Below, piece by piece: positions 5,273 to 8,646 of a stretch of 64,000 nt of DNA (position 1 is its first letter; each line of letters begins with the position of its first letter). The stretch is taken from assembly GCF_018219455.1 (NCBI RefSeq), contig NZ_CP056122.1:372001-436000 (forward strand), written 5' to 3'. The DNA comes from Moritella sp. 5 (GTDB lineage Bacteria > Pseudomonadota > Gammaproteobacteria > Enterobacterales > Moritellaceae). A program made the translations under genes and the position numbers. The notes below the pieces were generated by a model. It saw only the letters and a program-made list of their open reading frames with translations. It was not told the origin of the DNA and searched no databases.

Positions 5273-5593
5273 TTAATTTGAAAATCTGACAAGATCTTCA
5301 ATGACTAATTTTTTAATTTCTAACTGTTGCTCTGGTTGTAAACCATATTTTTCAGCCAGCTCGATATAGTCTTGGTTATTTAAAGATACGGTTAAACGAG
5401 GCCTTTTTGGTCGTTTATTAATAGTTAAACCGAGAATATCCCGGATCTGTTCTGACGGGCTTAAATTATTATCTAATGCTGCTTTCCGGATCTTGTATTG
5501 GATTTTTTCATCCATATCGAATGCGACTTGCACTGCTTTCATCGCTTTTTGTGATGATTGCCATCTTTCCGGTAACTCACGTGATTTAACCAT
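5273..5593 (-). CDS. Small protein with two ribbon-helix-helix-like units, last gene of the yjf cluster
   Basis: This 106-residue protein is not recognised by name. It looks like two successive ribbon-helix-helix units. The first has a short strand (KAVQVAFDMD, about 21-30), helix 1 (EKIQYKIRKAALDNN) and helix 2 starting with SPSEQIRDILGL. After a basic linker (KRPKRPR) comes a second strand (LTVSLN), helix (NQDYIELAEKYG) and helix (QPEQQLEIKKLVIEDLV). Tandem RHH proteins such as TraY bind DNA as pseudo-dimers. The gene follows yjfK by 23 bases and ends the cluster, so a role as its own regulator, acting at the dyads near 7529-7580, is proposed. ATG at 5593 is preferred; a TTG two codons upstream, with AAGG ahead of it, is an alternative. 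Confidence 0.7.
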   Translation of the reverse strand: MVKSRELPERWQSSQKAMKAVQVAFDMDEKIQYKIRKAALDNNLSPSEQIRDILGLTINKRPKRPRLTVSLNNQDYIELAEKYGLQPEQQLEIKKLVIEDLVRFSN

Positions 5594-5616: not shown

Positions 5617-6258
5617 TTATGCTATTGGCCAGTATCCTGTAATACTGTCATTACCAAGCTGTACGGTCAAGTACACGTCAGTGTCGCCGTTATTAAGTAC
5701 CATTATATCGATTAATTTACTTTCTTTGGCATCATGTAAATGATAAAACTCAAATTGCTGACCTGGGTTTTCATCGGCATATTGTGAAGGTGCTGCTGTT
5801 CTGAAGTCTGTTCTATGGTGATAACCAACGGTGGCGATATCTTGCTGGTAATAACGGTCAGCGTGCCAGTCTCCTAACGATACCGGTTGTTCAGTACTTA
5901 ACTCGGTAAAGCCTTCTTCGAATACGTCACTAAATAATTCTAAATCAAATAATTGTGAGACTTCTTCGCGAGTAAGCTCTAGGCTTAACTGGAAATTGTT
6001 CTGGTCGTAGCCAGGTAATGATAACCAAACATAGGTTTGTTGCTCGCCTTGCAGCTTAAAGCGCGGGTAATGTTGGTGCTCAAATTCAAGTGTCTCAATT
6101 GCAATCACTTCAAATTTTTGTCGGCGTACTTCAGTCGGTAAAGTAAAGCTGTCACTAAACTCGATGATATCACCAATAATTAACTTACTGACGTGGTTGA
6201 GTTCGCGGGTTGGGGTTTCTGTTGCAGATTTTTTAAATAAATTTTTGAAGAAACTCAT
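5617..6258 (-). CDS. yjfK: DUF2491 family protein YjfK
   Basis: This 213-residue soluble protein has an N-terminal amphipathic start (SFFKNLFKKSA) and a predominantly beta body. The segment KLIIGDIIEFSDSF near residue 28 and the C-terminal LGNDSITGYWP are the kind of sequence I associate with DUF2491/YjfK. Two adjacent ATGs occur; the second (6258) gives a better distance to AGGAG. In E. coli yjfK follows yjfJ (a PspA homologue) in an operon of unknown function linked to envelope stress, and the same order is kept here. The assignment rests on gene order as much as on sequence. Confidence 0.8.
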   Translation of the reverse strand: MSFFKNLFKKSATETPTRELNHVSKLIIGDIIEFSDSFTLPTEVRRQKFEVIAIETLEFEHQHYPRFKLQGEQQTYVWLSLPGYDQNNFQLSLELTREEVSQLFDLELFSDVFEEGFTELSTEQPVSLGDWHADRYYQQDIATVGYHHRTDFRTAAPSQYADENPGQQFEFYHLHDAKESKLIDIMVLNNGDTDVYLTVQLGNDSITGYWPIA

Positions 6259-6311
6259 CATGGCTCCTAAAGTATTAAGCTATTGGCATATTAAGATATA
6301 GCAGAATGACA

Positions 6312-6385: not shown

Positions 6386-7078
6386 TTAGCTATTTTGCTT
6401 GGCTTTTAAACGTTCTAATACCGAGTTCGCGTTACTTTGCTGTTGGCCAATGCCCGCTTCCGCAAGTTTTGATTTTAATGATTGGTCGCTGCCTTCAGCT
6501 TGTAGTTCATCAGCTGCAAGCATACGATCATCAAAGTCTTGTTGTTTTTGCTTAATACGCTCTAACGAATCTTTCGCACTGAGTAGTTTTGAATTACTTG
6601 CGCTAAAATTGTCAGTGATAGCTGATGTTGCTTTTTGCACGCTATCAGTGGTTTTCACCATTGTTAATTGACGTTGATGCTCTGCCAATTGACGCTCACT
6701 TTTCTTGACTAAATCTTTTAGTTTTGCAGCGCTGCTCGTGAAACTATCTAAATTTTGCTGTTGTTCGATAACTTGTTGCTCTAGCTGGGCAATTTTTTCA
6801 GCTACTTCTAATGCTAGGGCTTCGTTACCGGCATTCAATGCTTGTACAGCATAACCTTCATGTTCAGTTAGGTTGGCTTTTACACGCTCCAATTCACGGC
6901 CTGATTGCATCTGCTTTGCCATTACATCCGTTAAATTACGTTTAGCATTGGTTAAATGGGTTTGGGCGTCACGAATTTCTTGTTCAAAGATACGCATTGA
7001 GTTTGCATCAACAATACCTTCACCTACTTCACGGGCGCCACCACGGATCGCGGTCATAATTTTCTTAAAAATGCTCAT
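6386..7078 (-). CDS. yjfJ: PspA/IM30 family protein YjfJ
   Basis: This 230-residue protein is almost entirely coiled coil and rich in Q, E, K and A. It begins with an amphipathic helix (MSIFKKIMTAIRGGAREVGE), like other PspA/IM30 members. PspA proteins form ring- or rod-like polymers on the inner membrane and protect it during stress. The member encoded beside YjfI, YjfK and YjfL is the YjfJ branch and not the canonical PspA, because pspF, pspB and pspC are missing. The start has a strong AAGGAG site. It sits 23 bases after yjfI, so the two are likely translated from one mRNA. Confidence 0.88.
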   Translation of the reverse strand: MSIFKKIMTAIRGGAREVGEGIVDANSMRIFEQEIRDAQTHLTNAKRNLTDVMAKQMQSGRELERVKANLTEHEGYAVQALNAGNEALALEVAEKIAQLEQQVIEQQQNLDSFTSSAAKLKDLVKKSERQLAEHQRQLTMVKTTDSVQKATSAITDNFSASNSKLLSAKDSLERIKQKQQDFDDRMLAADELQAEGSDQSLKSKLAEAGIGQQQSNANSVLERLKAKQNS

Positions 7079-7101: not shown

Positions 7102-7515
7102 TTAAACTAAATAATCTGATAATTCAGTAATAACTTCGAGACTGTTATCACTTAATACAACTAATTCATGTTCTACATCAGCAATGCTTGATTGCACTGA
7201 TAATGCGCCATATACCACGTACATGTTATCGATTTTAGCGAATGATGAAAGTGGCATTGGAATGTTAAGTTCTAACATCGCTTCTAGCATTTCGACACGT
7301 TTTTCTGTTTTAACTTCGTTCTCGCCCCAGAGATAAGCAATACAAAGAATTTGCTCATCAGTGACAGAAACAAAAATTGGAATTTCTTCACGCCCTTCAA
7401 CGTCGACACGCAGTACATCAACATCACCGGAAATTGGCGTACAGTCAAATTTATAGCCTGTGTCAGACTTGTCGCCAAGATCATTCAGATAATTTGCAAT
7501 TTTATGTATGTTCAT
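7102..7515 (-). CDS. yjfI: DUF2170 family protein YjfI
   Basis: This 137-residue acidic soluble protein starts MNIHKIANYLNDLGD, and the segment MLEAMLELNIPMPLSSFAKI (about residues 80-100) is characteristic of DUF2170. The frame is open 19 codons further upstream, but ATG 7515 has AGGAACAAG directly ahead and is the sensible start. DUF2170 proteins are encoded next to PspA-like YjfJ in many proteobacteria; their biochemical role is unknown. This is the first gene behind the dyad-bearing promoter at 7554-7582, and it starts the transcript yjfI-yjfJ-yjfK-RHH. Confidence 0.85.
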   Translation of the reverse strand: MNIHKIANYLNDLGDKSDTGYKFDCTPISGDVDVLRVDVEGREEIPIFVSVTDEQILCIAYLWGENEVKTEKRVEMLEAMLELNIPMPLSSFAKIDNMYVVYGALSVQSSIADVEHELVVLSDNSLEVITELSDYLV

Positions 7516-7528
7516 CTTGTTCCTTTTT

Positions 7529-7541
7529 GACATATTATGTC
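7529..7541. promoter_or_regulatory. Dyad operator candidate, copy proximal to yjfI
   Basis: GACATATTATGTC is a 13-base dyad of the form GACATA-n-TATGTC. It lies in the yjfI leader, 13 bases before the start codon. It is the exact reverse complement of the copy at 7568-7580, and the two centres are 39 bp apart. Confidence 0.6.
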
Positions 7542-7553
7542 TAAGTGAGGTTA

Positions 7554-7582
7554 ACTTTAAGCCTCGAGACATAATATGTCAA
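7554..7582 (-). promoter_or_regulatory. Candidate promoter of yjfI
   Basis: On the minus strand a perfect -35 TTGACA (7577-7582) is followed after 17 bases by TAAAGT (7554-7559), a fair -10. The -35 is shared with the distal dyad, so a protein bound there would block RNA polymerase. Confidence 0.55.
7568..7580. promoter_or_regulatory. Dyad operator candidate overlapping the yjfI -35
   Basis: GACATAATATGTC is the reverse complement of the copy at 7529-7541. It overlaps the TTGACA -35 hexamer of the yjfI promoter, the classical place for a repressor site. Confidence 0.6.
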
Positions 7583-7749: not shown

Positions 7750-8646
7750 TTAAATTAATAACGCTGTGAGGATCAAGGCAATAGAGAGGTTGATTGCCAT
7801 GTCCATTGTCGCGACACCTATGTTATTTTGTAGGTCAACTTCTTTATTAATATCCACGCCATTAAGAATTAATTTTTTAGCTATGATAGCGAGAATAGTA
7901 AAAGCCGTTAGCATTACCAAGCTAAACACCATCCAAGAACCTAAGGTGGTCATGAGATTGGCGGTATCGTAATAAATATAGTTACTGGCTATCGTCACTG
8001 CTATCGCGACACCAATCAGGTACCCCCCGTGGCGCATGGCAACGGCAATATTATTGTCGGTAAAGGCTTGTTGCATGGTGGTGCCAAGATTGCCACGTGA
8101 ATAACGGTGCTCACGGTAGCGGGTCATGAGTAACATTAGTGTTTGGGAGATCAAAAAACCACTAAATATAGCGATAAAGGTGATGACTTCTAACCCTTCA
8201 GCCCAGATTAATGTTGAACGAATAATGATTGCGGTGGCAATTGAGGCGCAGGCATCTACAATCGCCACCGCAACATTACGCTGCGCTATTTCAGTATTTT
8301 TATCGAGTTGATTGAGCGATACTCGATCATGGATCCAACGGCCAAGTTTAATTAATACCAGTCCTGCTAAGCCGTACAGGCTCATGCCTAATATTTCGAT
8401 TGGCAGAGTTGCGGCTTTTTCGCCTGTGATGGCTCCAGAAAGTACGATACCTAAGCCAAGGATGGCTCCAGCTAAACTAATACCAAAAGCAAAATTGTCC
8501 CGCTTGGCTAATTCATCGGTGGTATCTATGTTATCGACGGCACCGGTGAAAAATCGCATCGCAGAGAGTAGGGTGAGGGCGATGATGAGGTCGGCAATTA
8601 AAAACAGTAACAGATCTGACGATAAGAGCGTTTCGAAAACAGACAT
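7750..8646 (-). CDS. yjfL: Duplicated DUF350 membrane protein (YjfL-like)
   Basis: This 298-residue inner-membrane protein has about eight hydrophobic segments. DUF350 is normally a domain of about 130 residues with four helices (E. coli YjfL is about 130 residues), so this protein is a fusion of two copies. The internal repeat shows in DNFAFGISLAGAILGLGIVLSG (first half) beside DNNIAVAMRHGGYLIGVAIAV (second half), and in RNVAVAIVDACASI beside NNIGVATMDMAINLSIALIL. The start has AAGGTAACC ahead. It lies 234 bases upstream of yjfI with a separate promoter between them. The function is unknown; context suggests an envelope-stress partner of the PspA-like YjfJ. Confidence 0.85.
   Translation of the reverse strand: MSVFETLLSSDLLLFLIADLIIALTLLSAMRFFTGAVDNIDTTDELAKRDNFAFGISLAGAILGLGIVLSGAITGEKAATLPIEILGMSLYGLAGLVLIKLGRWIHDRVSLNQLDKNTEIAQRNVAVAIVDACASIATAIIIRSTLIWAEGLEVITFIAIFSGFLISQTLMLLMTRYREHRYSRGNLGTTMQQAFTDNNIAVAMRHGGYLIGVAIAVTIASNYIYYDTANLMTTLGSWMVFSLVMLTAFTILAIIAKKLILNGVDINKEVDLQNNIGVATMDMAINLSIALILTALLI

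Follow-up and report, generated by a model that had tools for sequence, protein, structure and literature searches.

Paired dyads at the yjfI promoter of Moritella sp. 5 as the probable double operator of a tandem RHH repressor

Two 13-base dyads at the promoter of the yjfI operon in Moritella sp. 5 very probably form the double operator of a tandem RHH autorepressor, which would be the product of the operon's own terminal gene and would cover a sigma-70 promoter. They are located in the window, i.e. the whole stretch of 64,000 nucleotides analysed here. Genome comparison, in which the dyads and the RHH gene were present together or missing together, points to the site, the promoter geometry, the partner gene and the targets in trans, and the placement of the operator in the promoter of the regulator's own operon is suggested by position and co-occurrence. 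A widespread and uncharacterised PspA-family operon would gain a probable regulator, operator and promoter, along with a 13-bp motif that makes the regulon readable from sequence. The control of PspA without PspF also becomes a testable question, the source genome having a single PspA-family match and PspF matches that all fall below the cut-off.

Dyads and promoter of the yjfI operon

The features concerned, in window coordinates, are as follows.

5273..5593, minus strand: gene of the 106-aa tandem RHH protein, the proposed repressor, from its presence in 50/53 related loci, its operator co-occurrence and a model like AvtR, an F-relaxosome chain and single-chain Arc
5617..6261, minus strand: third gene (called yjfK in the earlier note), no Pfam family at E 0.01, product 23-45% identical in matched relatives outside Moritella
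6386..7078, minus strand: yjfJ, PspA/IM30 family (PF04012, E=1.8e-41, 142.6 bits against a cut-off of 33.9)
7102..7515, minus strand: yjfI, first operon gene, DUF2170 (Pfam PF09938, E=1.3e-36), CesT/Tir-like according to the literature
7529..7541, no strand assigned: putative operator O2, dyad GACATATTATGTC on the plus strand, just beyond the expected transcription start
7554..7559, minus strand: -10 box TAAAGT, from sequence, 17-nt spacer from the -35 box
7568..7580, no strand assigned: putative operator O1, dyad GACATAATATGTC on the plus strand, overlapping the -35 box
7577..7582, minus strand: -35 box TTGACA, from sequence, its GACA shared with O1, conserved in 52/52 upstream regions with two dyads

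The two 13-mers are exact reverse complements of each other with centres at 7574 and 7535; the earlier note had described such dyads 39 bp apart, one overlapping a TTGACA -35 box and the other in the leader, and both points were borne out, with the transcription start itself, and hence the position of O2 relative to it, deduced from the place of the promoter boxes. O2 starts about a dozen bases past the -10 box and stops 13 nt short of the yjfI ATG at 7515, which is the conserved start (MNIHKIANYL); the mechanical open reading frame start, at 7572, falls within a dyad.

A single dyad at up to two mismatches is unremarkable, with four in the window versus 3.13 expected. The exact 13-base core, by comparison, occurs solely at O1 and O2 in the 5-Mb Moritella-type genome, according to a search with the 15-mer TTGACATANTATGTC at up to two mismatches, which must catch every exact core and of which all 61 strand matches were listed. 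One-mismatch places elsewhere in this genome number seven and, as two of the five inspected are inside long open frames, a wider regulon is not claimed for the source genome. A global regulator of the dyads was rejected in view of just two exact cores.

Within the same genome, yjfJ is the sole PspA-family match, and the 12 matches to the PspF model TIGR02974 all stay below its cut-off (298 bits at most, where 443.55 are required); given these two results, the RHH repressor may be the only pspA-specific control in the genome. Sigma-54 control of the yjfI operon was rejected since a -24/-12 match is absent near the gene, none of the 34 window matches (up to two mismatches to TGGCACNNNNNTTGCW) being situated between 7102 and 7750. 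A DUF350 gene (window 7750-8646) directly precedes yjfI in Moritella; in other listed loci with DUF350 upstream (such as L025, L072, L140, L147, L151, and L194), a gene for a protein of ~570-590 aa stands in between.

Conservation of the paired dyads

A protein search of genome records yielded 53 loci from Moritella, Psychrobium, Marinifaba, Shewanella, Psychromonas, Thalassotalea, Colwellia, and others, metagenome bins included. One direct reading of upstream regions left out six of the 11 genus loci (L009, L011, L013, and L017-L019), and the exact-pair genome search described below covered all 11 genus genomes. Two dyads, each within one mismatch of GACATWNWATGTC, were found in 52 of the 54 yjfI upstream regions (53 loci and the window), compared with none of 10,800 mononucleotide-shuffled upstream regions. 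The earlier note had staked its operator reading on the motif being present ahead of orthologous yjfI genes in close relatives, which it is. The two exceptions, L025 and L069, have one dyad each, and L025 still has the RHH gene.

In all of the two-dyad regions, the upstream dyad is fused to TTGACA (up to one mismatch), followed at 16 nt (n=23) or 17 nt (n=29) by a -10-like hexamer with two mismatches to TATAAT in 51/52 cases and three in 1/52. The spacing of the dyad centres was 34 bp in 2, 35 bp in 10, 36 bp in 11, 37 bp in 6, 38 bp in 10, 39 bp in 12, and 40 bp in 1, a variation that speaks for the absence of a fixed helical phase.

The O2 dyad is able to form a 5-bp hairpin in the leader, as would suit dyads that work as hairpins in leader RNA or that are inverted repeats arisen by chance, a reading which is barely credible and already largely refuted. 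O1 holds the -35 box, and its transcription from the same promoter is not expected; an RNA element at the leader was itself rejected on account of a weak and unremarkable fold (z -1.38, with 21 of 200 shuffles folding as well). Both the spacing and the distance of the dyads to the ATG (12-72 nt) vary among relatives while the dyads are retained, and chance is excluded by the comparison of the 54 upstream regions.

The reading as a double operator of the RHH protein is further backed by Psychromonas, in which O2 reads GACATTnAATGTC with both half-sites altered together, and O1 usually keeps its -35 half with one base altered in the other. Alongside the altered O2, the strands of the RHH protein change from V to I and, in most rows, from R to K; this coordinated change of site and protein represents one clade and one event. 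In one Psychromonas metagenome-assembled genome (L069), the RHH gene and the O1 dyad are absent and O2 is retained, an apparent natural loss of the RHH gene together with O1; tblastn of four RHH proteins against this locus returned chance matches only (E 2.9 or more). A gap of ~650 bp separates yjfJ from the third gene in L069.

Co-occurrence of the dyads and the RHH gene

The RHH gene is present in 50 of the 53 related loci, 49 times directly after the third gene and once (L072) ~3 kb farther; besides L069, the loci without it are L024 and L027, short contigs that end ahead of the RHH position. Across the order (394 genomes), 115 genomes were RHH-positive, 79 had the exact dyad pair and 162 had DUF2170, with pair and RHH gene together in 78, the RHH gene only in 37, the pair only in one, and neither in 278. 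All 115 RHH-positive genomes have yjfI, so that yjfI alone is no predictor of the dyads, and within the 162 yjfI-positive genomes the corresponding numbers are 78, 37, 1, and 46. Co-occurrence was counted per genome, the place of the pair at the RHH cluster being established for part of the pair-bearing genomes, and a reversed-pattern control gave zero in every listed genome of the order and class sets. The co-occurrence of the motif with the small RHH gene, set beforehand as a test by the earlier note, thus holds in 78 of 79 exact-pair genomes. The pair-only exception (G115) is an 88% complete genome and probably corresponds to L027, whose contig measures 4,394 bp. Fisher's exact test returned 2e-52 (all 394 genomes) and 3e-16 (within the yjfI-positive genomes), values that ignore descent, are descriptive only and overstate the evidence, because gene and site are mostly co-inherited and the genome counts are not independent. 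Five genera (g7, g74, g87, g89, and g107) hold genomes with both beside genomes with neither, and none with just one.

Counted against the RHH reading are the 37 of 115 RHH-positive genomes without an exact pair. Thirteen of the 37 were fetched (L154-L157, L159, L161, L163, L164, L166, L168, and L170-L172). The three fetched f11 genomes have the pair with one mismatch in O1, all seven from f25 have a single GACTTATTATGTC (a one-mismatch dyad) just ahead of the RHH-linked yjfI, and in both from f15 one exact dyad stands alone; the remaining one, from f17, was cut by a contig end. The L170 upstream region, at 99 bp, was uninformative.

It is unlikely that the dyads are bound by another protein, e.g. 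YjfI itself or a global regulator, with the RHH gene just a linked neighbour. Since gene and site occur together, linkage could be misleading, and a precedent is available in Pseudomonas, where, according to PMC10948618, BacA, a DUF2170 protein, appears to keep its own operon low (a sigma-54 site being proposed) and a P. aeruginosa bacA mutant accumulated the other bac proteins. Against this, 46 of the 47 yjfI-positive but RHH-negative genomes are without the exact pair, and none of the 20 yjfI upstream regions read in 20 of these 47 genomes has a dyad within one mismatch, with one (L183) holding a two-mismatch match. A second, RHH-unlinked DUF2170 gene in f25 has no dyad within two mismatches in any of six cases, the yjfI of G032 has no dyad either, and the two exact cores of the source genome tell against the global-regulator variant. 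By sequence comparison, then, the dyads follow the tandem RHH gene at the operon end, not yjfI. The operator reading with the product of 5273-5593 as suspect, as put forward in the earlier note, thereby gains support from conservation and co-occurrence.

Pairs away from the RHH gene

In at least seven RHH-positive genomes, a dyad pair is found on a different contig from the RHH gene, and in four of them it stands ahead of a pspA-like gene. The four comprise PspA-family genes in G302 and G366 (L134 assigned through Pfam, L135 through its BLAST similarity to yjfJ), a gene that matches PspA weakly in G272 (E 4e-4, below cut-off), and a lone yjfJ (by Pfam) in G032, where the placement of the pair ahead of yjfJ instead of yjfI was also counted against the RHH reading. 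In G045 and G064 the pair precedes a gene for a 98-aa protein (the G064 copy without a Pfam family), a candidate new target of the RHH regulator, and in G159 a gene for a 111-aa protein with a hydrophobic start. Such pairs in trans are the trace that would be expected of a diffusible regulator with PspA-type targets. A rhomboid-family gene comes next after the PspA-family gene in L134. The two genomes with the 98-aa protein behind the pair belong to a single genus (L137:3017-3313 and L138:3449-3745), the L137 copy having no Pfam family.

The tandem RHH protein

The RHH protein is 57-72% identical to the window copy outside Moritella, above the 36-45% of the third gene product in the same loci. 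The window protein has no match in Pfam (E 0.01) or NCBIfam (E 1), one of three relatives scanned (L140) has a weak NikA-like match below cut-off (E=0.0027), and a sequence search of solved structures with the protein yielded no useful match (best E 0.39). Both TraY and AvtR belong to the RHH proteins of tandem type. An AF2 model (pLDDT 75, pTM 0.63) predicts strand-helix-helix twice per chain, with strand or bridge residues 22 and 69 and helices at 29-41, 46-54, 73-83, and 90-105; a two-unit RHH fold is thus predicted, its first strand at low confidence (residues 13-24, which include it, score below 50).

Foldseek E-values were ~1, with AvtR, F-plasmid relaxosome chains, and single-chain Arc among the top ranks and the unrelated HigA at rank 2. 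With VIA-align, rows 1-7 (Z 6.2-5.7) were taken by AvtR, F-relaxosome chains, and single-chain Arc; DndE followed at 4.4 and a further entry at 3.2, on a scale where Z under 8 may reflect merely a common arrangement and Z values alone prove little. The F-relaxosome chain we take to be TraY, the structure entry naming the F relaxosome only. These best structural matches (F TraY, AvtR, and the engineered single-chain Arc) have two RHH units per short chain, as predicted for the 5273-5593 product; TraY belongs to a plasmid and AvtR to a virus, whereas the RHH family of the window is found on many chromosomes and tied to one operon. Q22 in the first strand and R66 and L67 in the second are invariant in a 30-row alignment, and in a wider set every row shown has Q22 and most have R66 and L67, a conservation that fits a DNA-reading ribbon.

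Proposed regulation and known systems

The RHH protein would bind each GACATA-n-TATGTC dyad via a beta-ribbon of the strands KAVQVAF and RPRLTVS, and the bound protein would occlude sigma-70 RNA polymerase. Negative feedback would then keep yjfI, the pspA-like yjfJ, the third gene, and rhh low. The least certain step is that membrane stress may lift repression, perhaps via YjfI/YjfJ; a role as an envelope-stress switch is proposed by analogy, from the homology of yjfJ to PspA. On a broader and rather doubtful view, the PspA response of much of the marine Gammaproteobacteria might be run, in place of PspF and sigma-54, by a dedicated tandem RHH repressor whose double operator is built into the -35 box, with membrane partner switching of YjfI/YjfJ releasing the repressor, and unlinked PspA paralogues and small membrane proteins might be controlled as well, amounting to a new stress regulon.

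In the Psp system, a PspA-family protein is controlled by PspF and sigma-54. The control proposed here likewise concerns a PspA-family protein, yet it differs in its sigma-70-type promoter, in the lack of a -24/-12 match around yjfI and in PspF matches that all stay below the cut-off. The E. coli yjfIJKLMC cluster has yjfI and a pspA-like yjfJ, as here; at E. coli K-12 yjfI, the RHH gene is absent among the annotated neighbours and no dyad was seen by eye in the 174 bp upstream. In heat-evolved E. coli, PMC12492005 attributes a rise of yjfIJKL to a one-base promoter deletion.

The RHH gene was described as the final gene of some CesT/Tir-PspA operons by Ravi et al. in 2024 (PMC11237479), and these CesT/Tir(YjfI)-PspA(YjfJ) operons, closed by an RHH gene, represent the same kind of gene neighbourhood as here. 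Unlike the present analysis, the passages on these operons mention no operator, promoter, regulon, or tandem RHH, and "operator" and "palindrom" occur zero times in the main text. No report of an operator of yjfI/yjfJ-PspA operons was found in open-licence full text. The paired operator and the putative RHH control of a PspA operon would be an unrecognised mode of PspA control, the operon place of the RHH gene being already in print.

Other orders of the class

A set of 369 genomes of the class contained 13 with the RHH gene and three with the exact pair, all three RHH-positive; G000 and G015 were already in the order set, leaving G445 as the sole new pair genome. Seven of the 11 new RHH-positive genomes have dyads within one mismatch near the cluster, namely three dyads in G445, two at 15 bp in G632, G757, G698, and G470, two at 18 bp in G589, and one in G571. 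In the other four (G675, G468, G595, and G625), no dyad within one mismatch was found near the cluster, G468 and G595 having CCATAATATGTC and CCATATTATGTC ahead of yjfI and G675 and G625 nothing. The gap in the pair pattern excludes the adjacent 15-18 bp arrangement of these orders, the RHH-negative frequency of which falls outside the counts.

TTGACA is fused to a dyad, with a second dyad directly upstream, in L194, L195, L196, L202, and L203 (in the GC-rich L196, gene labels failed and the location of the dyad relative to yjfI is not established), and in L201 (G589) it is fused to the first dyad with the partner after it. As the TTGACA-fused dyad recurs with its partner on either side, the -35 dyad appears constant, and the second site switches sides between lineages. 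The layout that emerges from the comparison is a -35-embedded dyad in a sigma-70-type promoter, accompanied by a second dyad either immediately upstream or in the region of the expected transcription start.

The same genomes bear on whether the RHH protein acts on the dyads as an activator instead of a repressor, which is very unlikely. The extra dyad directly upstream of the -35 dyad in G632, G757, G698, G470, and G445 occupies a possible activator position, but what the genomes have in common is a dyad that overlaps a good -35 box, its partner in the order lies around or past the expected start, and both positions would block polymerase. The RHH-less L069 keeps TTGACT and TAAATT at 17 nt, but not the O1 dyad.

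Apart from the proposed repressor of the yjfI operon, second and diverged RHH copies are found outside the pspA cluster at L207:4539-4904 and L208:329-778. Immediately ahead of the L208 open reading frame stands a one-mismatch dyad, GATATTTAATGTC, for which reason this copy may regulate itself.
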